Shown here piece by piece: positions 13,848-58,248 of a DNA stretch of 64,000 nucleotides. A program made the translations under genes and the position numbers. This DNA is from Devosia sp. 67-54. Its GTDB lineage: Bacteria > Pseudomonadota > Alphaproteobacteria > Rhizobiales > Devosiaceae. Below the pieces are notes generated by a model. That model ran no database searches and was not told where the DNA came from. It saw only the letters and a program-made list of their open reading frames with translations. Numbering within the stretch: position 1 is the first letter of the stretch; the number at the start of each line of letters is the position of its first letter. The stretch covers positions 1 through 64,000 of the forward strand of contig NZ_MKVA01000009.1 in assembly GCF_001899075.1 (NCBI RefSeq), in the 5' to 3' direction.

Positions 13848-13848
13848 C

Positions 13849-15899: not shown

Positions 15900-15914
15900 T
15901 TAACCAATGCTTAA
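15900..15914. promoter_or_regulatory. Predicted CtrA binding site (TTAA-N7-TTAA)
   Basis: The sequence TTAA-CCAATGC-TTAA matches exactly the full consensus for the alphaproteobacterial cell-cycle regulator CtrA. It lies about 130 bases upstream of the first polysaccharide gene. The second TTAA is also the centre of the palindrome ATGCTTAAGCAT (15907-15918). The match is seen; binding is inference. Confidence 0.6.
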
Positions 15915-15951
15915 GCATCGCCTCCGCGTGATTGAAATTCCCGCTAGAGAT

Positions 15952-15967
15952 CGTGGAAATTTCCACG
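15952..15967. promoter_or_regulatory. 16-bp perfect palindrome upstream of the EPS operon
   Basis: CGTGGAAATTTCCACG is a perfect inverted repeat with an AT-rich centre, 80 bases upstream of the sugar transferase start. It has no T-run and no loop, so it is more likely a protein-binding operator than a terminator. The binding protein is unknown. Confidence 0.5.
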
Positions 15968-16046
15968 GATCCCGCCGGAACTGGCCAACACCGAACACCT
16001 CGCCGCCAGCTCGGATCGCCGCGCTCTCCCCCGCGGCGAGGAGGTG

Positions 16047-17441
16047 ATGCATCGGCTGATCCTGTGTGCCATCGTCGCCGCCATCGAGGCCGCCATCGCC
16101 TTCGTCCTCGTGCTCGGCGCGGCCGTCGCCTACCATCTGTGGGGCCTGCACCAGTCGCTGGCGACCTTCGACGGGCACTTCTACGTCGCCTATGGCGTGC
16201 TGACCGCCTTCGTCTATGGCCTGTTCGCCGCCGTCGCCTGCTCCCGCCTGCTCGACCGCACGGTCACGCCCTATCTCGACATCCAGCACGCCTTCTATTC
16301 CTGGACCGCCTCGATCGGCATCACGCTGCTCACCGCGTTCCTGCTCGGCCGCGTCGGCGATTTCTCGCGCGTCTCGCTGACCACCGCCTACCTCGTCGGC
16401 ATTCCCGTGATGTTCGTGGTGCGCAACCTCGTCCAGACCTTCGTCGACGGGCGCATCCGCCGCGGCGAATTGCACTACGACACCATCGCCGTGATGGGAA
16501 ACCGCGCCGACGTGCTCAATTTCCTCCTCGGCGGCGAGATCTGGCGGCAGGGCCACAAGCTGCAATCCACCCTGTATTTCGAGGAGGCCCGCGACGAGGC
16601 CGGCAGGCTGCGCCCCGAGGCCGTCCTGCAGTTCGCGCAACGCAACCTCAGGCACGGCACCGACCAGCTCGTCTTCGTCGGCAACCTCGCCGAGCTCGAC
16701 GCCTTCGAGGGTGTCGCCAGCGAGCTCAAGCGCTACGCCCTGAACCTGCTCTACGCCCCCGCCTCGCGCAACCGGGCGCTGAAATTCCTCGACGTCACCG
16801 CCATCGGTCCCAACAACGTGCTGCGCATCGTGCGCACGCCGATGGGCGAAACCTCGGTGATCCTCAAGCGCGCCTTCGACATCGTGCTCGCCGGCCTCGG
16901 GCTGCTGCTGCTGTCGCCGCTGCTGGCCCTCGTCGCCCTGCTGATCGTCGTCGAATCCCGCGGCCCGGTGATCTTCCGGCAGGCGCGCCGCGGCTTCAAC
17001 GGCGACACCTTCATGATCTGGAAGTTCCGCTCCATGCGGGTGGTCGAAAGCGGCTACCGGATGCAGCAGGCGCAAAAGAACGACCCGCGCATCACCCGCG
17101 TCGGCCGCTTCATCCGCGCCACCTCGATCGACGAGCTGCCGCAGCTGGTCAACGTCCTCACCGGCCAGATGAGCCTGGTCGGCCCGCGGCCGCACGCCGT
17201 CTCGCACGACGAGGCGCTGAGCCGCGAGCTTGCGGTCTACGCCCATCGCCAGCGCATCAAGCCGGGCATCACCGGCTGGGCCCAGGTGCACGGCTTCCGC
17301 GGCGAGACCACGACGCGCGAGCAGATCGAAGGCCGCGTCGAGCACGACATCTACTACATCGACAACTGGTCGATCCTGCTCGACCTCTGGATCATCATCC
17401 TCACCGTGTTCCACCCCGCCGCCCGCAGGAACGCGCGATGA
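16047..17441 (+). CDS. Polyprenyl glycosylphosphotransferase (initiating EPS sugar transferase)
   Basis: A 464-residue WcaJ/HfsE-type enzyme that loads the first sugar-1-phosphate onto undecaprenyl phosphate. Four N-terminal membrane helices lie in residues 1-115, a Rossmann-like central region follows, and the catalytic bacterial-sugar-transferase domain occupies about residues 270-464 ([19 protein letters not shown] membrane re-entry, then [21 protein letters not shown] and MSLVGPRP). Adjacent GTG (16044) and ATG (16047) codons are both possible starts; the purine-rich AGGAGG overlaps them, so the choice is uncertain. It overlaps the GT26 gene by 4 bases. It is the first gene of the plus-strand polysaccharide operon and follows a CtrA-type box and a palindrome. 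Confidence 0.9.
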
Positions 17442-18226
17442 GCGTGCTCGACATCATCGGCGGCGCCGCGCCGGAACGGGACGCGCCCACCATCGTCCTC
17501 GGCGGCCTGCCCATCACCGTCATCGACCGCCGCGCCGAAGCCGAGCTGATGGTGCGCCTTGCGGCGCGCCGGCGGCCGCAGGGGCCGCTGTTCTTCACCT
17601 CCGCCAATGGCGAGGTCATCGCCCGCACTGCCTTCGATCCGGCGCAGGCAGCCCTCTTTGCACTGGCCGACCAGATCGTCGCCGACGGCCAGCCGCTGGT
17701 CATCGCCTCGCGCCTGCTCTGCCGCGAGCCGCTGCCCGAGCGCGTCGCCACCACCGACCTCTTCCACGACGTGGCGCGGCTGGCGGAAACCACCGGCACC
17801 AGCTTCTACCTGTTCGGCGCCACCGAGGCCGAGAACGCCCGCGCCGTGGCCGCCGCTCGCGCCGCCTATCCGCGCCTCGACATCGCCGGTGCCACGCATG
17901 GCTATCTGGACGGCGCGGCGCTCGAGGCAAAGCTCGCCGAGATCGACGCGCTCGCCCCCGACATCTTGTGGCTCGGCCTCGGCGTGCCGCGCGAGCAGAT
18001 ATTCTTCCGCGAGCACGGCCACAGGCTCCGCCATGTCGGCATGATCAAGACGGCCGGCGGCCTGTTCGACCACATGGCCGGGAAAGTCCGGCGCGCGCCC
18101 CTGCTCTGGCAGCGCCTCGGCTTCGAATGGCTGTGGCGGCTGCTGATGGAGCCGCGCCGCCTGTTCGTGCGCTACCTGACCACCAACCCCAAGGCGCTCT
18201 ACGCCATGCTGAGGAATTCGCGATGA
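17438..18226 (+). CDS. WecG/TagA/CpsF family glycosyltransferase (GT26)
   Basis: A 262-residue GT26 enzyme. Recognisable elements are the N-terminal sugar-nucleotide segment TSANGEVIART, the catalytic-aspartate region IVADGQPLVIASR, LFGATEAEN, and GLGVPREQIFF near the end of the core. Members add the second sugar (often N-acetylmannosamine or its uronate) to the lipid-linked intermediate made by the initiating transferase, at the inner membrane. The gene sits exactly where this step is expected, overlapping the phosphotransferase gene by ATGA and the next gene likewise. Caulobacter HfsJ, a holdfast enzyme, belongs to the same family. Confidence 0.9.
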   Translation: MSVLDIIGGAAPERDAPTIVLGGLPITVIDRRAEAELMVRLAARRRPQGPLFFTSANGEVIARTAFDPAQAALFALADQIVADGQPLVIASRLLCREPLPERVATTDLFHDVARLAETTGTSFYLFGATEAENARAVAAARAAYPRLDIAGATHGYLDGAALEAKLAEIDALAPDILWLGLGVPREQIFFREHGHRLRHVGMIKTAGGLFDHMAGKVRRAPLLWQRLGFEWLWRLLMEPRRLFVRYLTTNPKALYAMLRNSR

Positions 18227-19389
18227 CCGCGGACACCGATATCGCCATCGTCGGCGGCGGCCTCGCCGGCACCATCGCCGCCATCGCCCTTGCCCGTACC
18301 GGCGCACGCGTCACCCTGATCGACCGCAACGCCGTGCCGCCCGACGAATTCCGCGTCGAAAAGCTCGGCGGCATGCAGCTCGAAAGTCTCGAGCGCCTCG
18401 GCCTGCTCGACCTGCTCGCCGCGCACTCCACCCGCTTCGACCAGTCGCTCAACATCCGCCATGGGCGCATCGTCGACCGCACCAATGCCCGCTACCAGGC
18501 CGCCTTCTACGCCGACATGGTCAAAACCATGCGCAGCGCCCTGCCAGGCGGCGTGCGCACTGTCATCGGCCGCGTCACCGAGCTTGCGACCGGCGCCGAA
18601 CTGCAGCAGTTGACCATCGCCGAGCACGGCACGCTCGGCGCCCGCCTCGTCGTCCTCGCTAGCGGCATGAGCGATTTGCTGCGCGCCCGCCTCGGCATCA
18701 CGCGCGAGGTGCTGCACGAGCGCCAGTCGCTGACCTTCGGCTTCAATTTGAGACCGCGCGACGGCATCGCTGCTCATCCGGCGCTGACCGTCTATGGCGA
18801 GCGCCCGCGCGACGGCATCGACTATCTGACCCTGTTCCCCATCGGCGGGCTCATCCGCGCCAACCTCTTCGTCTTCCTCGACCACCGCGACGCGTGGATC
18901 AAGGCGCTGCGCGCCGACCCGCTCGCCGCGCTCGACGACAGGCTCCCCGGCCTCCGCCATCGCCTCGACGACGTCGAGCTCGAGGGGCGGGTGCAGAACT
19001 GGATCATGGACCTCGCGGTCGCCCGCAACGTCCGGCAGCCGGGCGTGGTGCTGATCGGCGACGCCTACCAGACCTCCTGCCCCGCCGCCGGCACCGGCGT
19101 CAGCCGCCTCCTGACCGACGTCGAGCGCCTCGCCGCCCATGTGCCGGCCTGGCTGGCGACGCCCGGCATGGACGCGGCCAGGATCGCCGCCTTCTACGAC
19201 GATCCGGTCAAGGCGGCGATGGATGCGCACGCCCTCGGTCTCGCCGGCTATCGCCGCGCCTTCACCGTCGACACCCGCCTGTCGTGGCGCGCCCGGCGGC
19301 AGGCGCAGTTCCTGCGCCGCCGCCTGCTCAATGCCATCGATACGCTGAGCCCGCCGCTGGCAGCCCGCATCCGCGCCCTGCGCGCCTAG
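18223..19389 (+). CDS. FAD-dependent monooxygenase-like flavoprotein in the EPS operon
   Basis: A 388-residue group A flavoprotein. The N-terminal FAD motif is IVGGGLAGTIAAIAL and the second FAD motif is VVLIGDAYQTSCPAAGTG, the GD signature of UbiH/PHBH-like hydroxylases, halogenases and reductases. A basic C-terminal tail (about residues 350-388) could touch the membrane. Its reaction is unknown; it might act on a lipid-linked sugar or a carrier lipid. It is translationally coupled to the GT26 gene (4-base overlap), so association with polysaccharide synthesis is firm in position though not in mechanism. Its TAG stop shares the palindrome CTAG with the stop of the convergent acetyltransferase. 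Confidence 0.85.
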   Translation: MTADTDIAIVGGGLAGTIAAIALARTGARVTLIDRNAVPPDEFRVEKLGGMQLESLERLGLLDLLAAHSTRFDQSLNIRHGRIVDRTNARYQAAFYADMVKTMRSALPGGVRTVIGRVTELATGAELQQLTIAEHGTLGARLVVLASGMSDLLRARLGITREVLHERQSLTFGFNLRPRDGIAAHPALTVYGERPRDGIDYLTLFPIGGLIRANLFVFLDHRDAWIKALRADPLAALDDRLPGLRHRLDDVELEGRVQNWIMDLAVARNVRQPGVVLIGDAYQTSCPAAGTGVSRLLTDVERLAAHVPAWLATPGMDAARIAAFYDDPVKAAMDAHALGLAGYRRAFTVDTRLSWRARRQAQFLRRRLLNAIDTLSPPLAARIRALRA

Positions 19390-20549
19390 TCCCCGACGCG
19401 CTCCGGCTGCTCCGCAAGCACCGCCGGCTCGGGCGCCGCCGCGGCGTCGTCCTGCGGCCGTGCCTTGCCGGTGCGCGAGTCGAACAGGCTGCGCGCCAGC
19501 GCCTTCACCGACGGCAGCCGCTCGACCACCGCCGAGGCGACGAAGCCGAGCGGGCTGCCGGCCCGCAACAGCTGCCACATCGGCGTCGGCTGCGCCCCGA
19601 ACGTGCGCTTGTAGGGCTCGTCGCCGATGGTGAAATCGAGCAGCGTCTCGCCATGCGCGATGCAGTCCCGCGCGATCTGCTCGAACAGCAGGCTGCCCAG
19701 CGACTGGTTCTTGAACTCGGTCTGGGTGAAGCCGCCGAGGATGACGAGGAACGCGCCGCCATGGGCAAGCCCCAGCGCCGTGGCGACGATGCGGCCGTCG
19801 ACCGTCAGGCGATAGGTGCGCGCCAGTTCCGGCCGGCGCGCGATCGCGAGGTAGAAATCGAAATAGGCCGGCACCTGCAGCAGCTCGCCGCCGCCATTGA
19901 GCTCGAAGCGGTCGCGGCGGAAGACCTTCATCGCCTCGAACGCCGCCCTGAGGCCCACCGCGTCGGTGACTTCGGCAAACGCCACCTCGCCCTTGCGCCT
20001 GAGCTGCCGCAGCTTCTTGCCGAGTTCCTTGCCGTAGGAGCGGTTGAGGTGGCTGGCCCGCCAGCTCTCGAAATCGCCGTCCAGCGGCACCGCATAGGAA
20101 TTGGTGCGCATCGGCCGCAGCGCGCCGACCCCGAACAGCCGGTTGAGCGGCAACGCCCCGTCCGGCAGCTTGCCGATGCGCAGCACGTCGTGCGGGCCGA
20201 TGGCCGCAACGATCTGCCGCCACGTCGCGCCGCCGGCGACGATTGCGCCGAACGTCGCCGGGTCGGTCACCACCGCCGTATAATCGGAGACGCGCAGATC
20301 GGCGAACTCCACCACCTTCAGCATGCCGTAGCGCCGTCGCACCAGCGGCAGCACCGCCGCCAGCGAGCGATCGGCGGCATGGCGCAGCACCACGATCAGC
20401 GGCGTCGCGTCGTTCGCCGCCACCAGCCGGCCATAAAGCTCGGCAAGCCAGGCGGGATGCTGGAACGCCGTCGCTGACGACGCGCGGTACAGCGCGGCAT
20501 ACTCCGGCGAGGCGAAGTTGAAATCGTCTTCAACCGAAACAGCGAACAC
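19386..20549 (-). CDS. GNAT acetyltransferase, BcsL/CelD (HfsK-like) family
   Basis: A 387-residue protein of the Acetyltransf_6 type used in cellulose and holdfast loci. The N-terminal half has FQHPAWLAELY, typical of the family; the C-terminal GNAT domain includes DGRIVATALGLAHGG, the acyl-CoA-loop region FKNQSLGSLLFEQIA and the late motif DFTIGDEPYKRTFG. It probably N- or O-acylates a sugar or peptidyl precursor in the cytosol. Start is GTG at 20549. It is transcribed alone on the minus strand, divergent from the GINT1-like gene and convergent with the flavoprotein gene, and has a low-complexity Ala/Pro tail. Confidence 0.8.
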   Translation of the reverse strand: MFAVSVEDDFNFASPEYAALYRASSATAFQHPAWLAELYGRLVAANDATPLIVVLRHAADRSLAAVLPLVRRRYGMLKVVEFADLRVSDYTAVVTDPATFGAIVAGGATWRQIVAAIGPHDVLRIGKLPDGALPLNRLFGVGALRPMRTNSYAVPLDGDFESWRASHLNRSYGKELGKKLRQLRRKGEVAFAEVTDAVGLRAAFEAMKVFRRDRFELNGGGELLQVPAYFDFYLAIARRPELARTYRLTVDGRIVATALGLAHGGAFLVILGGFTQTEFKNQSLGSLLFEQIARDCIAHGETLLDFTIGDEPYKRTFGAQPTPMWQLLRAGSPLGFVASAVVERLPSVKALARSLFDSRTGKARPQDDAAAAPEPAVLAEQPERVGD

Positions 20550-20777
20550 GAGGGCGACGCCCCTCCCTTGATCTGCCGCTCCTCATCGGCCACGCCGCAG
20601 CCGGCGGCAACTTACGCTTGCGCAAATGGTTTACGCCGGCGCCGCCGCACCGAAGCGCGGTTAAGGTTGACGCCAATTCCGCCGCCGGGCGGGCAGAAAT
20701 GCTTTGCCTCCGGCCCCGTCTGCGGCGACCCTGCCGACAGCCGGCGTTCCGCGCCATTGCAGCAAGAACGGTGTTTT

Positions 20778-22208
20778 ATGCAAATTGACATCATCGTTCC
20801 GCGCCCGGCCCGCCGCTGGCACGCGATCCTCGCCGACCGCCTCGCGGCCGCCGGTCACGATCTCGCGATCATCCCCGCCGCCGCGGCCGGCTGGCCCGCC
20901 ACGACGCGCGCCGTGCTGGCGCTCGAGCGCCGCCTCCTCCATCGCGGCGCCCTGTCGGCCGCCGTCGATCTGCCGGCCCGTTCCCGCCCCGGCGCCGCCG
21001 ATCTCGCCGTCGATCTGACCGGCACCGCCGCAGCGACGGCCCCCACCCTCCGCCTCGCCTTCGACGGCACCGTCGACGACGCCGCCGTTCCCGCCGCGCT
21101 GGCCGGCGGCCGCCTGCCCGAGATCGACATCGTGCTCGACGGCCGCGGCTTCGGCCACGCCGCGCCGATGGTCGACAACCGCGTCGTCATGGCCGCCGGC
21201 GCCGACGACGTCTTCGCCCGCGCCATCACCCTCGCCGTCGCCGCCGTCGCCCGCTACGGCGCCGGCGACCGCGCCACCGCGCCGCTCGCCGCGCCCCCCG
21301 ACAGCGGCGCCTTCGCGCTGCGCTACCTCGGCTCGGCCCTGCCGCGCCTCGCCCGCGAAGCGCTGCGGCGCCGCCGCTACCGCTTCGCCCATTGGCGCGT
21401 CGGCTACCGCCTCCTCGACGGCCCCGGCGTCGCCGAGACGGGCGCGCTCGGCGCCGGCTGGTCCGTGCTGCCCGACGACGGCAGCCGCTTTTTCGCCGAC
21501 CCCTTCCCGGTCGAGCACGACGGCCGCCGCTACATCTTCGTCGAGGACTATCCGCACACCACGCGCAAGGCCGTCATCTCGGTCTCGGCGCTCGACGACC
21601 ACGGCGTCGCCGGCCCGCCGGTGCCCGTGCTCGAAGCGCCGCACCATCTCTCCTATCCGCAGATCTTCGCCCGCGACGGCAGCCTCTGGATGCTGCCCGA
21701 AGGCAGCGGCGGCGGCGGGCTGACGCTCTACCGCGCCGAGCGCTTCCCCGATCGCTGGACCCCGGCGGCCACGCTCCTCGGCGGCGAGATTTCCGACGCC
21801 ACCCTCGTCGAGCACGACGGCGCCCTCTGGCTGTTCGCCACCGACCGCGACGGCGGCCTCGGCAGCACCTCCGACACGCTGGTGGTGTATCGCGCCCCGA
21901 CGCTGCTCGGCCCGTGGACGCCGCATCGCCGCAATCCCATCCGCATCGACCGGCGCCGCGCCCGTCCCGGCGGCGGCGTCATCCGCCACGGCAGCGAGCT
22001 GCTGCTGCCGGTGCAGGACGGCACCGACGGCTATGGCGCCGGCCTCGGCCTCAGCCGCATCGTCCGGCTCGATGCCGACGAAGTGGTCCTCGGCGAGCCG
22101 CGCCCGGTGTCCGGCGCCGGCGACTTCCCCTATCCGCAGATCCATACCCTCAACCGCGCCGGCCGCCTCGAAGTGATCGATGGCATCGCCGCGGTGCGGA
22201 AGCGCTAG
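20778..22208 (+). CDS. GINT1-like glycosyltransferase (beta-propeller, glucosamine inositolphosphorylceramide transferase-related)
   Basis: A 476-residue protein. Residues 1-170 are an alpha/beta domain beginning MQIDIIVPRPARRWHAIL. Residues about 220-476 form a five-bladed-propeller-like domain with FFADPFPVEHDGRRYIFVED, HHLSYPQIF, WMLPEGSG and DATLVEHDGALWLFATD, the pattern of the family annotated as glucosamine inositolphosphorylceramide transferase 1. In bacteria such proteins occur in polysaccharide loci and probably transfer a sugar. The ATG at 20778 has a weak ribosome site (AAGAACGG). A GGTTAA element (CtrA half-site complement) lies at 20659-20664 in the 228-base upstream gap. Confidence 0.75.
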   Translation: MQIDIIVPRPARRWHAILADRLAAAGHDLAIIPAAAAGWPATTRAVLALERRLLHRGALSAAVDLPARSRPGAADLAVDLTGTAAATAPTLRLAFDGTVDDAAVPAALAGGRLPEIDIVLDGRGFGHAAPMVDNRVVMAAGADDVFARAITLAVAAVARYGAGDRATAPLAAPPDSGAFALRYLGSALPRLAREALRRRRYRFAHWRVGYRLLDGPGVAETGALGAGWSVLPDDGSRFFADPFPVEHDGRRYIFVEDYPHTTRKAVISVSALDDHGVAGPPVPVLEAPHHLSYPQIFARDGSLWMLPEGSGGGGLTLYRAERFPDRWTPAATLLGGEISDATLVEHDGALWLFATDRDGGLGSTSDTLVVYRAPTLLGPWTPHRRNPIRIDRRRARPGGGVIRHGSELLLPVQDGTDGYGAGLGLSRIVRLDADEVVLGEPRPVSGAGDFPYPQIHTLNRAGRLEVIDGIAAVRKR

Positions 22209-22243
22209 GCAACCTCGCACAAAACAATATCCGGCGAATTCTG

Positions 22244-22353
22244 CCCCCACCCTCGTTCCCTCCCCGCAAGGGGGAGGGAGGCGATGGAGCCGCGATCACG
22301 GTGGTGCAGTCGGGCTCCCCTCCCCCTTGCGGGGAGGGGCTGGGGGTGGGGGC
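22244..22353. repeat. Inverted GC-rich palindromic repeat pair between convergent genes
   Basis: Positions 22258-22278 and 22318-22338 are exact inverted copies of a 21-base sequence built around CCCCCTTGCGGGGAGG. The right copy continues into the same G-rich tail seen at 57-94. The pair lies between two convergent genes (stops at 22208 and 22376) and could terminate both transcripts. Confidence 0.8.
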
Positions 22354-22375
22354 CACAACCACAAAATTCCGTATC

Positions 22376-23458
22376 CTAAGTCCGGACCAGCAGCGCCTCA
22401 TACTCGGCGCACATGCGCTCTGGCGAATAGCGCTCCGCCAGCTGCCGCCCGGCGCGCGACAGCGCCGCGGCCAGCGCCGGATCGCTGCGCACCTGTTGCA
22501 CCGCCGCCGCCAGCGCCTCGGGCCGTTCGGCATCGGCGTAGATCGCCGCCTCGCCCAGCACCTCGCGCAGCACCGTCAGGTCATTGGCGACCACCGGCAG
22601 TCCCGCGATCGCCGCCTCCGCCGCCGCCAGCCCGAACGTCTCGGTTCGCGACGGAAACACGTACACATCGCCGGCCGCGAGGAAATCCGCCAGCTGCTGC
22701 CGCGGCAGCTCGCCGACCAGATGCAGCCGCCCGCCGATGCCCTTCGCCGCCGCCAGCGCCAGCAGCGGCTCCCGCTCCGGCCCGACCCCCGCCAGCGCCA
22801 GGTGCACGTCGGGCAGCGCCGCGAGCACGCCGACCAGCGCCGCGTGGTTCTTGTCGCGCGTCAGCCGCCCGCTCGACACCATGAGACAGCTCCCGGCCGG
22901 CAGGTCGAACGCCGCCCGCGCCTCGCGCCGCCCCAGCGCGCTCGCCGCGGCGGCGACGCCATGGTCGATCCGCTTGAGCCGCCTGCGATAGCCCGCGGGA
23001 TAGCCGTCGAACTGCGCCGCCAGCCAGCCCGAATTGGCAATGGAATAGTGATACACACCGGCGAGCCCCAGCAGCCGGTCGGCCAGCGCCGCCGGCCAGC
23101 CGCCATGCCGGCCCGGCGCCCCGCTCTGGTTGGCGAGCAGGTGCCGCGCCCCGGCCAGCCGGCCGGCGATGGTGCCGGCGATGTTGCCGTAGTGCTGGTA
23201 CGAGATCACCGCATCGGGGCGCGCCCGGCGCATGTAGCCGACGAGCCCCGTCACCGCGCGCAGCAGATCGCCGGCGCCGCGCGGCCGGTGCGCGAGCACG
23301 AAATCGGCGTGCGGATCGCCATCATAGGCGTCGGTCTTGCGATAGAGGAACACCGTGCGCACCTCGTGGCCGCGTGCCCTCAGGCCCGCGCCGACCATGT
23401 CGGACACCCGCTGCGCCCCTGCCGCTTCGGCCTGCGTCTGCACCTGGACGATCTTCAC
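22376..23458 (-). CDS. Glycosyltransferase family 4
   Basis: A 360-residue GT-B enzyme. The C-terminal nucleotide-sugar domain shows SSGRLTRDKNHAALVGVLAALP, LHLVGELPRQQLADF, and the E-x7-E motif in SRTETFGLAAAEAAIAGLPV, which identifies retaining GT4. It adds a sugar to the growing lipid-linked repeat unit on the cytosolic face. Start is GTG; it begins 6 bases after the flippase gene ends, so the two form a minus-strand pair diverging from the chain-length gene. Confidence 0.92.
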   Translation of the reverse strand: MKIVQVQTQAEAAGAQRVSDMVGAGLRARGHEVRTVFLYRKTDAYDGDPHADFVLAHRPRGAGDLLRAVTGLVGYMRRARPDAVISYQHYGNIAGTIAGRLAGARHLLANQSGAPGRHGGWPAALADRLLGLAGVYHYSIANSGWLAAQFDGYPAGYRRRLKRIDHGVAAAASALGRREARAAFDLPAGSCLMVSSGRLTRDKNHAALVGVLAALPDVHLALAGVGPEREPLLALAAAKGIGGRLHLVGELPRQQLADFLAAGDVYVFPSRTETFGLAAAEAAIAGLPVVANDLTVLREVLGEAAIYADAERPEALAAAVQQVRSDPALAAALSRAGRQLAERYSPERMCAEYEALLVRT

Positions 23459-23464
23459 CTGCGG

Positions 23465-24835
23465 CTATCCCAGCACGCGCCGGCCGGCCGGCAGCCGCAG
23501 CAATCCCAGCACCGACGAGTCGATGCCGATGCGCCGTTTGGCGATGCCGACCGAAATGCTGTTCCACACGATCAGCGTGCCGGCGATGCTCGCCGCCGCG
23601 CCCGGCGGGCCGAGCTGCCACGTCGCCAGCGCCGTGACACAGAGGCCGATGGCGTTGACCGCCACCAGCACCTTGAGCAGCGAGTTCTGCAGTCCCGTCA
23701 GGTGCGACAGCAGTTCGATCGGCCCGCACGCCGCGGCGAAGCTCGCCCCCAGCGCGAAAATGATCAGCACCGCATGCGTGCCGGGCGTCGCATAGGCCGG
23801 ATCGAAGATTCGGAGGATGAACGGCCCGAACGCGGCGAACACCGCCAGCGTCAGCACCGCCACCACGCTCGCGCCCAGCGCCGTGAGGCTGGTGATCCGC
23901 TGCACATGCTCGGTGTCGCCGCTGTAATAGGCGCCGCTGATTTCCGGCGCCAGCGCCTGGTTGATGCCGGTGAGCGCCAGCAGCACCACGCGCGTCGTGC
24001 GGTCGGCGACGAACACCGCGCCCGCCACTTCCGGCCCGAGGATGGCGGCGACCAGCAGCGTGCTCACCTGCCCCAGCGCCGGCGGCAGCGACGTGGCGCC
24101 CCAGAGCCCCAGCGTCACGCTGCGAAATTCCCGCTTCTGCTCCAGGCTCAGCGGGGTCCGCTCGAGCCGCAGCGTGTCGCGCAGCAGCAGCACCGCCTGC
24201 GGCAGCACCGACAGCAGCAGCAGCCCGGCCGTGAGCAGCGTCACCGTCACCGCGTCGGTGCTCCCATGCGTGACATAGAGGCCGCCGGTCGCCAGCAGCA
24301 CGAGCGCGCGCCACACCACGTCGCGCGGCAGCAGCGCCCCCACCAGCACGCTCTTGGCGCGGAACGCGCCCGAGGCGAATTCCGACCAGCCCAGCGCCAG
24401 CGACAGCAGCGCCGCGGCACAGCAGAGCGGCAGCCATTCCGGCGTCGCCACGCTGAACCCCGGCAGCATGCCCACCAGCACCAGCCCGGCGCTGGTCGCC
24501 ACGAGGCCGCCCATGGCGACCAGGATCGAGCGCAGCATCAGGCTGTTGGCTACCCCCTTTTGTCCGGCGCCGGCATATTGCGGCCAGAAGCGCAGCACCA
24601 CGCTCTGCTGCCCGACGCTGGCGAAGAACGACACCAGGCTCGCCCCGGCATAGGCGGCGCTGAACAGGCCGAACTGCCGCTCGTCGGTCACCAGCGCCAC
24701 CGCCAGGAACATCGCGAACGACAGCCCGGCGCTCGCCAGCTTGATGATTCCCGCGACCGCGCCGTTGCGGGCGAGGCCGGTCACCGAAATGCGTTCGGCC
24801 GGGGCCGAATAGTCAATGGCTTCGGTGCTGCTCAC
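23465..24835 (-). CDS. Polysaccharide flippase, Wzx/MATE-like
   Basis: A 456-residue integral membrane protein with about 12-14 hydrophobic helices spread over its length, typical of the Wzx/RfbX branch of the MVF/MATE superfamily (GAVAGIIKLASAGLSF near the start). It should flip undecaprenyl-pyrophosphate-linked repeat units to the periplasm for Wzy. Start is GTG at 24835. It is upstream of the GT4 gene and divergent from the Wzz-like gene, with a CtrA-type box between them. Confidence 0.88.
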   Translation of the reverse strand: MSSTEAIDYSAPAERISVTGLARNGAVAGIIKLASAGLSFAMFLAVALVTDERQFGLFSAAYAGASLVSFFASVGQQSVVLRFWPQYAGAGQKGVANSLMLRSILVAMGGLVATSAGLVLVGMLPGFSVATPEWLPLCCAAALLSLALGWSEFASGAFRAKSVLVGALLPRDVVWRALVLLATGGLYVTHGSTDAVTVTLLTAGLLLLSVLPQAVLLLRDTLRLERTPLSLEQKREFRSVTLGLWGATSLPPALGQVSTLLVAAILGPEVAGAVFVADRTTRVVLLALTGINQALAPEISGAYYSGDTEHVQRITSLTALGASVVAVLTLAVFAAFGPFILRIFDPAYATPGTHAVLIIFALGASFAAACGPIELLSHLTGLQNSLLKVLVAVNAIGLCVTALATWQLGPPGAAASIAGTLIVWNSISVGIAKRRIGIDSSVLGLLRLPAGRRVLG

Positions 24836-25010
24836 TCAGGTTCGCCATCCGCGGGACAGGATCGCACCCGGGACCGACGCCGCGTGCATGCCCGCTTATC
24901 GCCAATCGCGCCACCCGCTTCCACCGCCACGGCCCGCAATGGTTACTCCGGCCCCGGCTGGAACGGCGATCCGATCGCTCGCATTTGACTCAAATGCAGC
25001 GGCTTTAAGG

Positions 25011-25025
25011 TTAACCGCCGCCTAA
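25011..25025. promoter_or_regulatory. Near-consensus CtrA binding site (TTAA-N7-CTAA)
   Basis: TTAA-CCGCCGC-CTAA has one mismatch to TTAA-N7-TTAA. A further TTAA lies at 25005-25008. The box is in the gap between the divergent flippase and chain-length genes, 58 bases before the latter. Confidence 0.45.
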
Positions 25026-25082
25026 CATTGGTTGGTCTTGGCCCGCGCGATAGCTTCGCCCCAAACAGGACCTCGCGGCACC

Positions 25083-26996
25083 ATGACCTCCGCCATTCTC
25101 GACTATCGCAACCCGCCTCCGCTGTTCGACGTGGGTGCCGTGTGGAGCATCCTCTGGCGCCGCCGCCTGCTGGTGGTGCTGGTGACCGTCGCCAGCATCG
25201 TTCTGGCCTCGCTCTATGTCCTGGTTACGCCGGCCAGCTACACCGCCACCGCCGCCATCCTGGTCGATCCGCGCGACATCAAGACCACCAATATCGACAG
25301 CGTGCTGCCCGGCATCGGCGCCGACAGCGCCGCCATCGCCAGCCAGGTCGCGGTGATCGAATCGCGCGATCTGCTCGGCAAGGTCTTCGACCGGCTCGGC
25401 CTTGCCGCCGACCCCGAATTCGCCGGCTCCGGCGGCGGCCTGCTGGGCATCCTCCGCCCCGCCGCTCCCGCCGACGACGCCGTGGCGCTGCAGAAATTCC
25501 TGCGCGCCGTCAACGTCGAGCGCGAGGGCCTGACCTACGTCATCGACGTCACCGTCAAATCGGCCAGCCCCGACAAGGCGGCCCGCATCGCCAACGCCGT
25601 GGTCGAGCAGTACATCGCCGCCAATGGCGCGCAGCAGACCAATGCCGCCGCCAGCGTCACCAGCACGCTCAATACCCGCATCACCGCCTTGCAGGCCGAC
25701 GTCGGCGCCGCCGAGCGCGCCGTCGCCGACTTCAAGCAGCAGAACGGCATCTACGACGAAACCACCGGCGGCACCCTGCAGTCGCAGATCGACGCCATCT
25801 CGGCGCAGGTCGTCGCCGCCCAGGACGCGCTCAGCCTGGCGCAGGCCCGCCTCGACCAGGCCAGGGCCGCCGGCACCTCGCCCGCCGCCCTGCTCCGCCT
25901 CTCCGACGCACTGTCGTCGCCGGCCATGGACGCCTTGCGCACCGACTACAACCAGAAGGCCGCCGCCCTCGCCAGCGCCCAGGCGACGCTCGGCCCGCGC
26001 CACCCCACCGTGGTGCAGGCCAATGCCGAGCTCGCCAAGGTCGTGGCACTGCTGTCGCGCGAGGCGGCGCGCATCTCGCGCCAGCTCCAGGCCGACCGCG
26101 ACCTCGCCGCCGCCAATCTCGACAAGCTCGATGCCAGCCTCGCCGGCATGCGCCGGAAAGCCGCCGACATGAACCTGGCGCAGGTACAGCTTCGCCAATT
26201 GCAGGGCAAGGCCGACGCCGCCCACAAGGTGCTCGACGATTTCCAGCAGCGCTCGCAGGAGACGGCGCAGATCGAGGGCCTGCAGAACCAGCAGGTGCAC
26301 GTCATCTCCCGCGCCGCCGCCCCCACCGAGGCCACCTGGCCGAAGCCCGCTCTGCTGCTGCCGGTCAGCGCCGTGCTCGGCCTGCTCGCGGGCTCGGGCC
26401 TGGCGCTGCTGCTCGGCCCCGCCGCGCGCGATACCGCCCCGGCGCCCGCGCCGGTCACGCCCGACCGGCCCCGCCGCGAGCGCGGCCTCGCCCGCGCCAC
26501 GCCCGCGGAATTGCCGCGCTCCACCGCCCGCCGCTATGCCAGCCTCGACAGCGCCCGCCGCGAAATCTTCGGCACCGACGCGACGCCGCTGACCCAGGCC
26601 GTGCAGGATTTGCTGCGCGAAGTGCTCGCCGTGCTGCCCACCCATGACGGCCCCTTCGTGCTCGCCGTCACCGCCAGCGATCCCGAGCTCGCCGCCTATG
26701 GCACGGCGCTCGCCGCCATGGGCCTCGAGCGCATCGGCGGCAAGGCGCTGGTCGCCGAGCCCGGCGAAATTCCCGGCGACGCCGCCGCCTACCGCTTCAT
26801 CCTCGTGGGCGACACCCATCACCTCGCGTCCAGCGCCGATCTCGACATCCGCGTCGCCTCCACCGACGAGTTGCGGCGACGCCCGCTGCATCCGGGCGAG
26901 GTGGCGCTGGTGCTGCCCGGCGAGCCGCCGCCGCGTCCGCAATTGGTGCCGGTGCAATCGCCATCGCGCCCCTCGAGGGTCGCCGCGGTACAGTGA
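25083..26996 (+). CDS. Wzz/GumC-type chain-length protein with a kinase-dead C-terminal domain
   Basis: A 637-residue polysaccharide co-polymerase. A short cytosolic start is followed by membrane helix 1 (about residues 29-49, VLVTVASIVLASLYVLVT), a long periplasmic coiled-coil-rich domain (about 50-415, many Gln/Ala heptads), and helix 2 (about 420-445). The C-terminal cytosolic region (about 490-637) corresponds in place to the BY-kinase domain of Wzc-like proteins, but no Walker A loop and no tyrosine-rich tail are visible. Polymer length control with Wzy and Wza is the expected role. The ATG at 25083 is chosen over an in-frame upstream start because family similarity begins there. It overlaps the GH5 gene by 4 bases. 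Confidence 0.88.
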   Translation: MTSAILDYRNPPPLFDVGAVWSILWRRRLLVVLVTVASIVLASLYVLVTPASYTATAAILVDPRDIKTTNIDSVLPGIGADSAAIASQVAVIESRDLLGKVFDRLGLAADPEFAGSGGGLLGILRPAAPADDAVALQKFLRAVNVEREGLTYVIDVTVKSASPDKAARIANAVVEQYIAANGAQQTNAAASVTSTLNTRITALQADVGAAERAVADFKQQNGIYDETTGGTLQSQIDAISAQVVAAQDALSLAQARLDQARAAGTSPAALLRLSDALSSPAMDALRTDYNQKAAALASAQATLGPRHPTVVQANAELAKVVALLSREAARISRQLQADRDLAAANLDKLDASLAGMRRKAADMNLAQVQLRQLQGKADAAHKVLDDFQQRSQETAQIEGLQNQQVHVISRAAAPTEATWPKPALLLPVSAVLGLLAGSGLALLLGPAARDTAPAPAPVTPDRPRRERGLARATPAELPRSTARRYASLDSARREIFGTDATPLTQAVQDLLREVLAVLPTHDGPFVLAVTASDPELAAYGTALAAMGLERIGGKALVAEPGEIPGDAAAYRFILVGDTHHLASSADLDIRVASTDELRRRPLHPGEVALVLPGEPPPRPQLVPVQSPSRPSRVAAVQ

Positions 26997-28027
26997 CCGC
27001 CTTGCGCGTCACCCGCCGCACCGCCCTCGCCGCGCTCGCGGCCGGCGTCGTCGCACCCGCCCTGGCGCAGGCTTCGGCACAGGCGCGCGTCCCGAGCCGC
27101 GGTTTCGCCCTGCCCGACTGGCTCGCCGCCACGCCGCGCGAACCGGCCCCGGCGCTGCTCGACCGGTTGCGTGCGCTGGGCTTCGAGACCATCCGCCTGC
27201 CCGTCGATCCGACCTTCGTGTCGCCGGCCACGCTCGGCCGCATCGCCGCGGTGCTGGCAACGGTGACCGCCCATGGCTTCAACGCCATCCTCGACCTGCA
27301 CCCGGGTGGCGACATCGACTCCGACCAGATCCAGCTCTGCTGGCGGCTGCTGGCCCCGGTCGTTGCCGCCACCGATCCGGACCGCGTCTATGCCGAGCTG
27401 CTCAACGAGCCGCCATTGGCACCGCGAGCGTGGGATAACCTGAGAGAATCGCTGGTCGAAATCGTTCGCACTGCCACCACAAACCACACGGTGATCTGGG
27501 GTCCCGCCCGCGTGCAGGGCATCTGGGAGCTCGACGCCACCGGCCCCCTGGCCGACGCCAACAGCATCGTCGCGGCGCACTATTACACCCCGATGCTGTT
27601 CACCCATCAGGGCGAGACCTGGGACCCTAACCCCCTCGCCCGCATGCACAATCTGCCCTTCCCGCTCAGCCCCGACATGCCCGAGATCACAGCTCTCGCG
27701 GCCACCCTCGACGCCGCCGACCGCCGCTATCTCGAGGCCGAGCTCAAGACCGCCTGGACCGCCGCCCGCATCGCCGGCGACCTCGCCACCCTCGCCGCCT
27801 GGGCCAAGGCGCACGGCACCCCCGCCCTGCTCGGCGAATTCGGCGTGCTCGATTTCGCCGTCGATCCGCAAAGCCGCGCCCGCTGGGTCCGCGTCGTGCG
27901 CGAAGCCGCCGAGGCCAATGGTATCGGCTGGACCTATTGGGAAGCAGACCAGGGCTTCGGCTTCGTCGCCGATCGCGCCGCAGCCGGCGGCATCGATGCC
28001 GGCATGGTCGAGGCGCTGCTCGCATGA
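26993..28027 (+). CDS. Glycoside hydrolase family 5 (cellulase-like), exported
   Basis: A 344-residue protein with an N-terminal export signal carrying twin arginines (RVTRRTALAALAAG, residues 5-18) and a likely cleavage after ALAQA. The GH5 barrel has the acid/base glutamate in LLNEPP (Glu139), HYYTP and the nucleophile in LLGEFGVLD (Glu282), so both catalytic residues are present. A periplasmic endo-glycanase inside a Wzx/Wzy operon usually trims or edits the nascent polymer, suggesting a beta-linked backbone; this is inference. GTG start overlapping the Wzz stop (GTGA); next gene overlaps by ATGA. Confidence 0.88.
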   Translation: MTALRVTRRTALAALAAGVVAPALAQASAQARVPSRGFALPDWLAATPREPAPALLDRLRALGFETIRLPVDPTFVSPATLGRIAAVLATVTAHGFNAILDLHPGGDIDSDQIQLCWRLLAPVVAATDPDRVYAELLNEPPLAPRAWDNLRESLVEIVRTATTNHTVIWGPARVQGIWELDATGPLADANSIVAAHYYTPMLFTHQGETWDPNPLARMHNLPFPLSPDMPEITALAATLDAADRRYLEAELKTAWTAARIAGDLATLAAWAKAHGTPALLGEFGVLDFAVDPQSRARWVRVVREAAEANGIGWTYWEADQGFGFVADRAAAGGIDAGMVEALLA

Positions 28028-29538
28028 CTACCGACGCGCTGCAGCAGCCCCCGCTTCGCCTGCGCCTCGCGCCGGCCGCCGCCGAGGCGCTGTTTCATGC
28101 CGGCATCGCCGTGCTCGTCGTCATCCTCTCGGTCTCGAGCTTTGCCGTCTCCACCGTCTTCGGCGTCGCCGCCAGCTTCGTGATGACGGCGATCGTCGCC
28201 ATCGCCGTGCCGGCATCGATCCCGCTGCTCGTCGCCGTCTCCTTCGTCACCCAGAACATGGTGGTCGCCTGGTACACGCCGAGCATCCCCGACAACACCG
28301 ATTTCGACGCCCTGCGCGGCGCCAATTTCGTCATTCTCGCCACTGCCTTCGCCGCCTTCTTCCTCGCCGCCTTCCAGGCGCGGGCTCGCGCCATCGCCGA
28401 GTTGCGGCCCTGGATCGTCGGCGGCGTCTGGCTGTGCGGCACGATCGTCGTCTATCTCGGCCTCGGCGCCGTGCACGGCGACGCCAAGGACGCCATCGTC
28501 TATTTCCGCAACGTCATCACCCCGATCGCCTGCTTCTACGTCGCCATCATCGCCGCCAGCCTCTATCGCATCGACCTCACGCGCACCGTGCCCTGGCTCG
28601 CCGGCTTCGCCATCGCCTACGGCTATTGCGAGCTCGCCTTCGGCATGGATTTCCTCAGCCTGTTCCACGGCGACCAGTACATCCTCCGCGCCATCGCCCG
28701 GCAGATCCAGAGCGGCGCCTACGAAAAGGCGCTGCAGGAGACCGGCTTCGTGCTCCGCGGCCTGCAGGACGTGCTGCTGACCAATCTGTTCAACCTGCCT
28801 ATCCCCGGCCTGCCGCAGGTCTTCCGCATCGGTGGACCGACGTTCCATTCGATCAGCTTCGCCTACGCGCTGAGCATCGTCTCGGTGTGGTTGCTGTTCA
28901 ACAGGCGCTGGCTGCTGCCGCTGCTGGCGCTGCCGCTGCTCCTGGTCATCGGCTCCAAGGGCGCTATGTTCCTGCTGCTGGTCGGCCTGTTCGTCCGCCT
29001 CGCAAAGCCGCTGCTCGGCATTCGGCCGGCGCTGCTGCTCACCGTTGCGGCGTCGGTGGCCTGGGTTGCCGGCTCGATCGGCTTCGGCATCCGCGCCGGC
29101 GACTACCACGTGCTCGGCCTGTTCGCCGGCCTGCGCGAATTCACGCACAATCCGCTCGGGGTCGGCCTCGGGCTCGGCGGCAACCTGTCGAGCACCACCG
29201 TCGACGTCAACTGGGATCTCGCCCAGGCGCACGGCGCCGCCGCCCAGCCGATGGAAAGCGCCATCGGCGTCATGCTCTACCAGATGGGCATCGGCAGCCT
29301 GCTGTTCCTCGCCTTCCTGCTGGCCATTGCCCGTGCCGCGTGGCGTGCCTATCGTCGCAGCGGCGATTTTGCCGTGCTGTTCCTAGTGGTCGCGGTCGTC
29401 GCCATCACCGCCAACGCCGTGCTGCAGGAGGAGGCCTTCTTCTCGCCGCTGGCGCTCGGCTTCGCGCTGCTGCTCGGCGGCGCCCGCCTTGCCGCCCACT
29501 GGTCGCCGACCTCACAGGCGCGGAGTTTCCGCGAGTAA
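28024..29538 (+). CDS. Wzy-like polysaccharide polymerase / O-antigen ligase-family membrane protein
   Basis: A 504-residue protein with about 11-12 membrane helices and one large periplasmic loop (about residues 215-285). Near the C-terminus are FTHNPLGVGLGLGG and VMLYQMGIGSLLFLAFLL, the layout of O-antigen polymerase/ligase proteins. It is expected to polymerise repeat units flipped by Wzx. The ATG overlaps the GH5 stop (ATGA). Its TAA stop codon lies inside the predicted LacI-type operator at 29534-29547, so the following promoter begins inside this gene's end. Confidence 0.85.
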   Translation: MTTDALQQPPLRLRLAPAAAEALFHAGIAVLVVILSVSSFAVSTVFGVAASFVMTAIVAIAVPASIPLLVAVSFVTQNMVVAWYTPSIPDNTDFDALRGANFVILATAFAAFFLAAFQARARAIAELRPWIVGGVWLCGTIVVYLGLGAVHGDAKDAIVYFRNVITPIACFYVAIIAASLYRIDLTRTVPWLAGFAIAYGYCELAFGMDFLSLFHGDQYILRAIARQIQSGAYEKALQETGFVLRGLQDVLLTNLFNLPIPGLPQVFRIGGPTFHSISFAYALSIVSVWLLFNRRWLLPLLALPLLLVIGSKGAMFLLLVGLFVRLAKPLLGIRPALLLTVAASVAWVAGSIGFGIRAGDYHVLGLFAGLREFTHNPLGVGLGLGGNLSSTTVDVNWDLAQAHGAAAQPMESAIGVMLYQMGIGSLLFLAFLLAIARAAWRAYRRSGDFAVLFLVVAVVAITANAVLQEEAFFSPLALGFALLLGGARLAAHWSPTSQARSFRE

Positions 29539-29614: not shown

Positions 29615-30640
29615 ATGGTTACCCTCAAGGAAATCGCCAAAGCCGTCGGTGTGTCGACCGCGACCGTGTCGCGCGTGCTCAATTTCGACCAGACCCTGTC
29701 GGTGACGGCCAGGAAGCGCCAGGCCATCATCGAGACGGCCGAGGCGATGAACTACGCCACCCCGCGGGCGCGCAACCGCGCCAACCAGCAGGGCCTCAAC
29801 AAGGTGGCGCTGGTGCATTTCCTGCGTCCCGAGCAGGAGCTGATCGACCCGTATTACGTCGGCCTCCGCCTCGGCATCGAGAGCCGCTGCCAGGCCCTCA
29901 AGATCGAGACGGTGAAGGTCTACCACACCGAATCGCTGCCCGAGGCGTCGCTGCTGCAGAGCGCCTCCGGCGTCATCGCCATCGGCGGCCATCGCGAGCA
30001 TGAGATCGCCTGGCTGAAAAAGCACAGCCGCCACGTCGTCTTCGCCGACTTCGCCCCGCCGTCGGGCGAGTTCGACGGCGTCGACAGCGACCTGCTGCTC
30101 GCCATGCGCAAGCTGCTGACCTCGCTGACCGAGATGAACTACCGCCGCATCGGCTTTGCCGGCTGGGTCGACGAGAACAGCCCCGGCCCCTACGAGGAGA
30201 GCCGCTGCCGCGCCTATGTCGCCTGGATGCAGGAGCACGATCTGTTCGAGCCCAAGCTGTGCGCCACCGACCGCGCCATCGAACGCAACACCGAGCAGAC
30301 CGGCTACCAACTGGGCCTGCGGCTGCTCGGCCAGAAGAAGCCGCCCGACGTCATCGTCACCTGCAACGACAACATCGCCGTCGGCGTCTATCGCGCCGCG
30401 CACGAGCTCGACCTCGCCATCCCCGACGATATCGCCATCGCCAGCTTCAACGACATCTCGGTGGCGCAATTCCTCAACCCGCCGCTGACCACCGTGCACC
30501 TGCCCTCCGAAGAGATCGGCGAGACCGCCGTCGAGCTGCTGCTCGAGCGCATTGCCGGCCGCGAGCTTGCCAAGCGCATCACCCTCGCCAACCAGATCAT
30601 CTGGCGCGGCAGCACGCGCCGGCCGCCGGCGGCGATCTGA
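29615..30640 (+). CDS. LacI-family transcriptional regulator of the sugar importer operon
   Basis: A 341-residue regulator. The N-terminal helix-turn-helix and hinge are classical (MVTLKEIAKAVGVSTATVSR, residues 1-20), followed by a periplasmic-binding-protein-like effector domain ending with IPDDIAIASFNDISVAQFLNP and the usual dimer-interface strand. The ATG at 29615 is chosen because the HTH begins there. It should repress the downstream ABC/GH2 genes until a sugar binds, and itself, since identical operators flank it (29534 and 30650). The inducer is unknown, probably a sugar released by the GH2 enzyme. Confidence 0.93.
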   Translation: MVTLKEIAKAVGVSTATVSRVLNFDQTLSVTARKRQAIIETAEAMNYATPRARNRANQQGLNKVALVHFLRPEQELIDPYYVGLRLGIESRCQALKIETVKVYHTESLPEASLLQSASGVIAIGGHREHEIAWLKKHSRHVVFADFAPPSGEFDGVDSDLLLAMRKLLTSLTEMNYRRIGFAGWVDENSPGPYEESRCRAYVAWMQEHDLFEPKLCATDRAIERNTEQTGYQLGLRLLGQKKPPDVIVTCNDNIAVGVYRAAHELDLAIPDDIAIASFNDISVAQFLNPPLTTVHLPSEEIGETAVELLLERIAGRELAKRITLANQIIWRGSTRRPPAAI

Positions 30641-49911: not shown

Positions 49912-50918
49912 AACCTGGCCCCCGCAATCTCATCACCGATGTCGCCGGCCTTCGCGTCGGCAATGCCGAAGACCACACCATCAAGACCGGCACCACGGTG
50001 CTCGTCGCCGACCGGCCGTTCCGCGCCTCCGTCGACGTGATGGGGGGCTCGCCCGGCTCGCGCGAGACCGATCTGCTCTCGCCCGACAAGCTGGTCGATC
50101 AGGTCGATGCGCTCGTCCTCTCCGGCGGCTCGGCCTTCGGCCTCGACGCCGCTTCGGGCGTCGCCGATGGCCTGCGCGCCCAGGGCCGCGGCTTTGCGGT
50201 GGGGCCGGTGACCGTGCCCATCGTGCCGGGCGCCATCCTGTTCGACCTGATCAATGGCGGCGACAAGAGCTGGAACGAGAATCCATACCGCAACCTCGGC
50301 CGGCGCGCGCTCGAAGCCGCCGCCGAAGATTTCGCCCTCGGAACCGCCGGCTGCGGCGTCGGCGCCACGACCGCCGGGCTCAAGGGCGGCCTCGGCTCCG
50401 CGTCGCTGCTGCTGCCCAGCGGCTTCACCGTGGCCGCTCTGGTAGGCGCGAATCCTACCGGCGGCGTCGTCGCTGGCGATGCCGGCCATTTCTGGGCCGG
50501 CGCGTTCGAGATCGGCGACGAATTCGGTGGTCTCGGCCCCTCCCCGCAGCGTGTCTCGCTGGTCGACGCCGGGCGCACCAAGCGCGAATACATGACCGAG
50601 ATGTCCAACACCACCATCGCTATCGTCGCCACCGACGCCGATCTCAGCAAGGCGCAGCTCAAGCGCCTGTCGGTGGCAGCGCAGGATGGCATGGCGCGCG
50701 CCATCAGCCCGTCGCATTCCCCAGTCGACGGCGACATCGTGTTCTCGGTCTCGACGGGCAGCCGGCCGATCAGCGAGCCGATCTACGACATGATCGCGCT
50801 TGGCCACGCGGCGGCGGTCTGCCTCAGCCGCGCCATCGCGCGCGCCGTCTATTTCGCGACGCCGGCGCCCGGCGATCACTTCCCGACCTGGCAGCAGAAA
50901 TGGGGGAAGCGCGACTAG
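49908..50918 (+). CDS. P1/S58-family aminopeptidase (DmpA-like, self-processing)
   Basis: A 336-residue N-terminal-nucleophile-like hydrolase. It begins NLITDVAGLRVGN and has VLSGGSAFGLDAASGV, both typical. The autocleavage site appears to be in MSNTTIAIVATDADLS, where the Thr after Asn would become the nucleophile of the beta chain; DmpA has Ser there and many homologues Thr. Such enzymes hydrolyse N-terminal L-amino acids, D-amino-acid esters or beta-peptides. Its stop codon shares a CTAG with the convergent VanZ-like gene. Confidence 0.88.
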   Translation: MKPGPRNLITDVAGLRVGNAEDHTIKTGTTVLVADRPFRASVDVMGGSPGSRETDLLSPDKLVDQVDALVLSGGSAFGLDAASGVADGLRAQGRGFAVGPVTVPIVPGAILFDLINGGDKSWNENPYRNLGRRALEAAAEDFALGTAGCGVGATTAGLKGGLGSASLLLPSGFTVAALVGANPTGGVVAGDAGHFWAGAFEIGDEFGGLGPSPQRVSLVDAGRTKREYMTEMSNTTIAIVATDADLSKAQLKRLSVAAQDGMARAISPSHSPVDGDIVFSVSTGSRPISEPIYDMIALGHAAAVCLSRAIARAVYFATPAPGDHFPTWQQKWGKRD

Positions 50919-51262
50919 CGCGGCCCAGGCCTCAGGCGCGTCAGCACGGCGCCGATGGCGAGGCCGACGACGCCGCCAGCCACCTTCACTCCAAGATCGA
51001 GCCAGCGGCCATGCCGGCTCGGCTCGAACACCTGCGTCAGCTCAAGCAGCGCCGTCGCTCCCACCAGCAGCAGGCCGACCAGCAATATGTGCCGTGGATA
51101 GGCCAGCGCGAACACGATGCCGATCAGCAACAGCGCCAGGGCCCGCTCAAGTTGCGTCGGCAACGGCGAGATCGGCCGCCAGCCGATGGGGCCGATGGTC
51201 ACCACCACCAGCGCGGCCAGCAGCAGCCAGGCGAGGATTTTGAGCAGGAGCGACAGCGACAC
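50915..51262 (-). CDS. VanZ-like small membrane protein
   Basis: A 115-residue protein with three to four hydrophobic helices (residues 5-25, 39-54, 58-73, 91-107). PIGWRPISPLPTQLERALAL and LLELTQVFEPSRHGRWLDLGVK, a long loop with the E-x-x-Q and RxxxxxD pattern, match the VanZ-like family. VanZ-like proteins often accompany polysaccharide genes; here it diverges from the Wza-like gene across 150 bases. Function otherwise unknown. Confidence 0.78.
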   Translation of the reverse strand: MSLSLLLKILAWLLLAALVVVTIGPIGWRPISPLPTQLERALALLLIGIVFALAYPRHILLVGLLLVGATALLELTQVFEPSRHGRWLDLGVKVAGGVVGLAIGAVLTRLRPGPR

Positions 51263-51978: not shown

Positions 51979-54212
<2,234 letters not shown>

Positions 54213-54221
54213 GCCATCGCC

Positions 54222-58239: not shown

Positions 58240-58248
58240 CTCGCTCTC

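Follow-up and report, generated by a model that had tools for sequence, protein, structure and literature searches.

Which polysaccharide is made by the ten genes lying between positions 16047 and 29538 of the 64,000-nucleotide stretch of Devosia sp. 67-54 analysed here (contig NZ_MKVA01000009.1; hereafter the window): a polar adhesin of the holdfast or unipolar polysaccharide (UPP) kind, as a reading made from the letters only had proposed (hereafter the sequence-only reading), or another surface polymer? We consider it likely that the genes form an accessory Wzx/Wzy-dependent surface polysaccharide module of the exopolysaccharide (EPS) type, probably acquired horizontally and separate from the upp-like locus of the same genome. 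The gene families, their conservation as a unit and the separate upp-like locus are observed directly. The module is ordinary in kind and sound as an observation, and was mislabelled as holdfast-like. Setting a rhizobial EPS module apart from the polar adhesin locus that it resembles keeps mutants from being misread; it also brings out two dedicated proteins (the flavoprotein and the propeller protein) in a pathway of nodulating bacteria that is carried on plasmids as well.

The module and its conservation in other Rhizobiales

Genes were called with our own codon-score caller. The first gene begins near 16047, not at 15900 as the sequence-only reading had it, and the open reading frame at 15900-17414 lies on the other strand. 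This gene encodes an initiating polyprenyl-phosphate hexose-1-phosphate transferase (PHPT) of the WcaJ/EPS_sugtrans type (16047..17441, + strand; PF02397, 1.3e-67), scoring 364.9 bits with TIGR03025 (above the cut-off of 295.55) and 380.6 bits with TIGR03023 WcaJ (below the cut-off of 410.75). It is followed by a WecG/TagA/CpsF glycosyltransferase of family GT26 (17438..18226, +; PF03808, 3.5e-50), which matched the TagA-type structure 7mpk (E 7.9e-26) and was the single WecG match in a search of its own genome; and by a group-A flavin monooxygenase-like flavoprotein (18223..19389, +; PF01494 FAD_binding_3, 8.2e-16), with 17 aligned orthologues at 46-60% identity and a predicted model (pLDDT 80.8) whose best Foldseek match was PnpA (6.1e-21), followed by UbiI, squalene epoxidase and UbiH. 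Next come a GNAT acyltransferase (Acetyltransf_6; 19386..20549, -; PF13480, 1.2e-23), a GINT1_N/propeller protein (20778..22208, +; PF24793 'GINT1_N', 2.2e-32), a GT4 glycosyltransferase (22376..23458, -; PF00534, 6.3e-28; 60% identical to Mesorhizobium) and a Wzx-type flippase (23465..24835, -; PF01943, 30.0 bits, cut-off 28.2; 67% identical to Mesorhizobium). The last three genes encode a Wzz/PCP chain-length protein (25083..26996, +; PF02706, 9.4e-14; GNVR, 1.9e-06), in whose sequence no Walker-A pattern (P-loop) was found; a GH5 hydrolase (26993..28027, +; PF00150, 6.5e-23); and a candidate Wzy polymerase (28024..29538, +), recognised by about ten hydrophobic segments, its position and its conservation (10 aligned relatives, 45-57% identity). 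The GH5 hydrolase has, by eye, a twin-arginine translocation (TAT)-like N-terminus and carries both expected Glu motifs (NEP, GEFG), which align with those of the endoglucanase 7vt5 (2.4e-25). Each join within PHPT-WecG-flavoprotein and within Wzz-GH5-Wzy is a 4-base overlap, and the two groups are therefore suggested to be coupled operons.

The families named by the sequence-only reading (initiating PHPT, GT26, flavoprotein, GNAT, GT4, Wzx, Wzz, GH5 and a short Wza at 51.4 kb) were all recovered with Pfam. Its broader call of a Wzx/Wzy polysaccharide locus also stands, as the initiating PHPT, glycosyltransferases, Wzx, Wzz and Wza of such a pathway are present (Pfam/NCBIfam; Wza 22 kb off). 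Neither an O-antigen-ligase domain nor a deacetylase was found with Pfam among the ten module proteins.

The neighbourhoods of WecG were compared in the best 80 named loci matching the window-type WecG profile, scoring eight other module genes at 40% identity and 60% coverage; the flanks end at 10 kb, some being shorter, so that GH5 and Wzy were often beyond reach. At least one further module gene was present in 38 of these loci and at least four of the eight in 25. The Mesorhizobium locus L218 reads WecG-flavoprotein-GNAT-GINT1-GT4-Wzx-Wzz-GH5-Wzy, in the order and on the strands of the window, and the window WecG is 68-70% identical to Mesorhizobium loci (e.g. L066, L067, L072). The module is rearranged on the megaplasmid pRtrCIAT899c of Rhizobium tropici CIAT 899 (L166), with a 248-amino-acid protein and no GNAT match, and in Shinella curvata (L090), where neither the flavoprotein nor GNAT was matched within the stretch; in S. 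zoogloeoides (L164) part of the set is present. On a Mariluticola halotolerans plasmid (L165) the order is PHPT-WecG-311 amino acids-GNAT-Wzx-GINT1-GT4-Wzz-GH5-Wzy; the 311-amino-acid protein gave a cupin-like match below the cut-off, and GNAT and Wzx are 29% and 25% identical to their window counterparts. Taken over Mesorhizobium, R. tropici CIAT 899 and Shinella, the genes are the same at about 43-71% identity, order and strands being identical in Mesorhizobium, whereas PHPT is mostly not adjacent, unlike in the window. Genes recurring together in other genera in this way reflect more than chance, and the fallback of the sequence-only reading ('or EPS') fits such an accessory rhizobial module.

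No described product for this module was found in the open-licence literature searched. A link to the floc polysaccharide of Shinella zoogloeoides was considered and dropped, floc formation being reported to map to cellulose genes (PMC9012009); PMC5936775 describes an acid-sensitive mutant of R. tropici affected in a polysaccharide gene of the megaplasmid, but this gene could not be located within the module and no link is proposed.

The reaction steps, the nature of the polymer and its place on the cell, as we infer them, would run as follows. The PHPT would prime undecaprenyl phosphate with a hexose phosphate, and WecG and GT4, perhaps with the propeller protein, would extend the primed lipid; the GNAT protein may acylate, and the flavoprotein oxidise, a lipid-linked or sugar intermediate. 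The repeat unit would then be flipped by Wzx, polymerised by Wzy with the Wzz that lacks a P-loop, and exported through the short Wza 22 kb away, the exported GH5 hydrolase trimming or releasing the polymer.

A separate upp-like locus on contig C5

The genome holds two PHPTs, two Wza proteins and one WecG. Contig C5 carries both the second PHPT and the second Wza, in one locus at about 1,085-1,093 kb (L006:13405-18548, L002:574-3382), where a NodB-type deacetylase (PF01522, 2.1e-15) and Wzz are on one strand and Wza-GT4-PHPT-Wzy on the other; merR-, ihfA-, fabH- and plsX-like genes (by eye) follow about 13-16 kb downstream. An HfsE model was searched against 385 genomes of the class, 216 of which gave a match, and 14 named control genomes. 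The C5 PHPT ranked fifth, with 354.9 bits over positions 51-460, and the window PHPT scored 234.9 bits over the C-terminal part only (positions 258-456), so that this search found no initiating transferase of the UppE/HfsE lineage in the window; the cut-off of 750 was reached by none of the 385 class genomes and by one of the 14 controls.

We read ten other C5-type loci (L209-L217, L221), from Bradyrhizobium, R. rhizogenes, Mesorhizobium, Phreatobacter and the window's own family. Wzz divergent from Wza-GT4-PHPT-Wzy, an arrangement seen at C5 and not in the window, recurs in nine of them (L209, L211-L217, L221), including two from Bradyrhizobium with Wza in place (L209, L211). The tenth (L210, also Bradyrhizobium) lacks Wza there and is otherwise the same, which fits the separate placement of uppC reported for B. 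ottawaense and B. japonicum (PMC12727192). The deacetylase is present in six of the ten, and merR/ihfA/fabH-like genes are near in six of the ten. By this make-up, matched to gene arrangement and not to an Agrobacterium upp sequence, we strongly infer that C5 is the upp core of this genome.

Parts shared by the two loci are distant (PHPT 38%, Wzz 30%, GT4 31% over 144 residues, Wza 51% identity), and the two Wzy proteins gave no BLAST match to each other. The likeness to holdfast/UPP loci seen by the sequence-only reading is not supported: the shared families are generic and the upp-core make-up is found at C5. As to a canonical upp/hfs locus elsewhere in the genome holding orthologues of all the window's genes, the separate locus exists and is upp-core-like, but it contains no counterparts of the window's WecG, Wzx, flavoprotein and GH5 hydrolase.

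A role of the window Wzx as sole flippase of this genome was considered and rejected, since PF01943 matched at five places. One of these flippase-like genes stands alone beside a FemAB/GNAT acyltransferase elsewhere on C5 (L229:8678-11097, about 409.7-412.1 kb), and as a pair they are candidates to work in the upp pathway, where the locus itself lacks a flippase.

Distribution and origin of the module

The C5-type Wzy is widespread and the window-type Wzy is patchy. The former was present in 32 of the 41 relatives (this genome among them), in 13 of the 18 congeners (weakly in G008, as a fragment in G013; none in G001, G004, G005, G014 and G016) and in all 19 named genomes, at 33-38% identity. 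The latter was found in 38 of 397 genomes of the order, own genome included (53% identity in G462, of the window's family, 47% in G747, and 27-36% in the other 35), and in 14 of the 19 named genomes (13 at 56-60%, one at 33%; not found in five). A WecG-family match was absent in 14 of the 32 relatives having the C5-type Wzy, and the C5-type Wzy was absent in 7 of 25 WecG-bearing relatives (24 above the cut-off, one below); neither gene therefore depends on the other.

An unrooted tree of 59 WecG sequences, built without Caulobacter HfsJ and the rhizobial WecGs able to replace it, placed the window WecG in a clade of 13 (support 99/95) with Mesorhizobium, Rhizobium, Shinella and unclassified Rhizobiales, and not with Mariluticola or the congeners G018 and G004. 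A wider clade of 33 (100/100) leaves out the WecGs of family f82, which have long branches of unsure place; this family holds the two best HfsE matches. The G+C content is 0.710 in the module and 0.677 in the rest of the window. Both G018 and G004 have PHPT-WecG, with other partner genes, close to the pair of ABC transporter genes found in the window; G004 has the LacI-type gene nearby as well. This looks like a variable site for EPS genes that received the module from outside, transfer being probable because of the placement of WecG in the tree and the difference in G+C.

Several observations weigh against an accessory EPS module that is distinct from the polar adhesin pathway. The C5 locus has no Wzx and one GT4, and its pathway may borrow parts from elsewhere. 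HfsJ, a WecG-family protein required for the Caulobacter holdfast, is reported to be replaceable there by WecGs of R. leguminosarum, Brucella ovis and Phaeobacter (PMC11340318); the R. leguminosarum and B. ovis cases mean that some rhizobial WecGs serve holdfast-type pathways, and by analogy a rhizobial WecG may do so here. Within the module, no other module gene reached the threshold in 42 of the best 80 WecG loci, chiefly Bradyrhizobium, and a PHPT-like gene was present in only four, so that the PHPT belongs loosely; these best 80 are not a census. The candidate Wzy, for which segments, place and conservation speak, had no meaningful match in Pfam or NCBIfam searches. No window-type Wzy was found by BLAST around the WecG of the congeners G018, G004, G015, G016 and G017, whole congener genomes not having been searched. 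The short Wza is about 22 kb from the module, the horizontal acquisition is read from one unrooted gene tree plus G+C, and no polymer or mutant is known for the module.

Alternative readings

The alternative that survives best, still an unlikely one, is that the polymer stays bound to the cell, as a capsule or in an O-antigen-like form, and is not a secreted EPS. The same parts serve capsules, and Sphingomonas LM7 is reported to have two Wzx/Wzy polymers, one of them secreted and the other cell-bound (PMC11340318); the lack of an O-antigen-ligase domain in the ten module proteins, and a GH5 hydrolase and Wza that fit release, speak the other way, although weakly in either direction.

Somewhat less probable is a second polar polysaccharide made beside the UPP, or the sharing of WecG or Wzx with the UPP pathway. 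In 2022 Onyeziri reportedly described two UPP polymers in A. tumefaciens. Having no Wzx and one GT4 at C5, the upp pathway must draw on genes located outside that locus; uppABCDEF of Agrobacterium is likewise called incomplete (PMC4018554), and the replacement of HfsJ by some rhizobial WecGs (PMC11340318) points in the same direction. Yet the genome has other flippase-like genes, one of them beside the FemAB/GNAT gene; 14 of the 32 relatives with the upp-type Wzy lack a WecG-family match; and there is no localisation evidence for a polar polymer.

That the module is, or varies upon, the actual holdfast/UPP locus is very improbable and was dropped after the HfsE profile, the order of C5-type loci, the WecG trees and the co-occurrence counts, since the overlap in families, the need of Caulobacter for a WecG-family HfsJ that some WecGs can replace (PMC11340318) and the window WecG being the only one found in the genome are outweighed by the separate C5 locus with a PHPT nearer HfsE (354.9 vs 234.9 bits), deacetylase, Wza and Wzy, by the recurrence of its order in nine of ten other loci (the tenth lacking only Wza), by the 14 of 32 relatives having the C5-type Wzy and no WecG-family match, and by the 100/100 clade of the window WecG, which excludes the WecGs of f82 with its two best HfsE matches.

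The propeller protein

The plant GINT1 glycosyltransferase has its catalytic GT64 domain at the C-terminus. The 'GINT1-like transferase' of the sequence-only reading was right as to the GINT1_N domain and was dropped as to the transferase: Pfam gave GINT1_N and a sub-threshold GH43 match alone, with no GT64 domain, and the model shows an N-terminal alpha/beta part followed by a glycosidase-type propeller, of the GH130/GH43/GH62/GH117 kind. Structural matches cover residues 215-476, and Foldseek TM-scores over the whole length are low (about 0.35). No hydrophobic (signal-like) segment was found in the protein. Family GT108 comprises propeller-fold mannosyltransferases. By this analogy we tentatively suggest, as a doubtful possibility, that the cytosolic-looking GH130/GH43-type propeller acts as a glycosyltransferase or phosphorylase in repeat-unit assembly, with the flavoprotein oxidising the lipid-linked repeat or the isoprenoid carrier, which would be chemistry new to described Wzx/Wzy pathways.

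Comparison with known polysaccharide systems

The promonan (prm) cluster of Sphingomonas sp. LM7, which makes a secreted Wzx/Wzy EPS, resembles the module in having a PHPT, a WecG-type glycosyltransferase and glycosyl hydrolases; parts of its own are a BYK kinase, a second ATPase, GH10, GH16 and an OafA-type acyltransferase, and its WecG is reported not to have replaced HfsJ (PMC11340318). Compared by gene content and not gene by gene, the window has instead GH5, GNAT, the flavoprotein, the propeller protein and a Wzz without P-loop. The upp core on C5 and the window share the generic families PHPT, GT4, Wzz, Wza and (in the window as a candidate) Wzy, whereas the PHPT and Wzy of C5 belong to other lineages and a deacetylase is added. 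HfsH is the polysaccharide deacetylase of the Caulobacter holdfast. Unlike Caulobacter hfs, the module proteins include neither a deacetylase (HfsH) nor a GT2 (HfsL), and the N-terminal half typical of HfsE is absent; PHPT, HfsJ (WecG type), HfsK (N-acyltransferase), flippase, polymerase and export families are reported for hfs (PMC6372794) and have family-level counterparts in the window, the polymerase as a candidate. HfsJ homologues are reported from Caulobacterales, and by the criteria of that study are not shown for all polar-adhesin Alphaproteobacteria (PMC9980756).

The displaced Wza and the borders of the locus

The short Wza/OPX protein (51425..51964, +; PF02563, 6.2e-22) consists of Poly_export and SLBB only. 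Its identity is 61-63% with the Wza adjoining PHPT-WecG in the congeners G004 and G018 and 51% with the C5 Wza, and by this homology it belongs with the module. Short Wza proteins are reported to be the commonest class generally (PMC9603273), and shortness is therefore no mark of a holdfast. Beside it lies a VanZ-like protein (50915..51262, -; PF04892, 1.6e-04, below the cut-off), 61% identical to the neighbour that adjoins Wza likewise in G004.

Two ABC half-transporters (named by eye; 11955..15576, -) border the module without being part of it; in G018 and G004, too, such genes (85-88% identity) stand beside the EPS locus. The other border, likewise not part of the module, is a LacI-type regulator (by eye; 29615..30640, +) ahead of a sugar-ABC operon, 66% identical to the one next to the EPS cluster of G004. 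At the corresponding site in G018 and G004 (L038, L040/L041), the interval between Wza and PHPT-WecG is occupied by genes that look by eye asparagine-synthetase-like, acyl-carrier-like and AMP-ligase-like, together with an NAD-synthase-domain gene (Pfam) in G018, a set that we take to be reminiscent of exosortase-associated EPS clusters. Several congeners (L017, L019, L020, L023, L024, L032) have another WecG type, about 34-39% identical to that of the window and mostly beside a gene of 419-453 amino acids. Adjoining the displaced Wza, positions 51979-60144 hold genes of the aromatic-degradation type (pobA-, pcaB- and pcaG/H-like starts, by eye), unrelated to the module.

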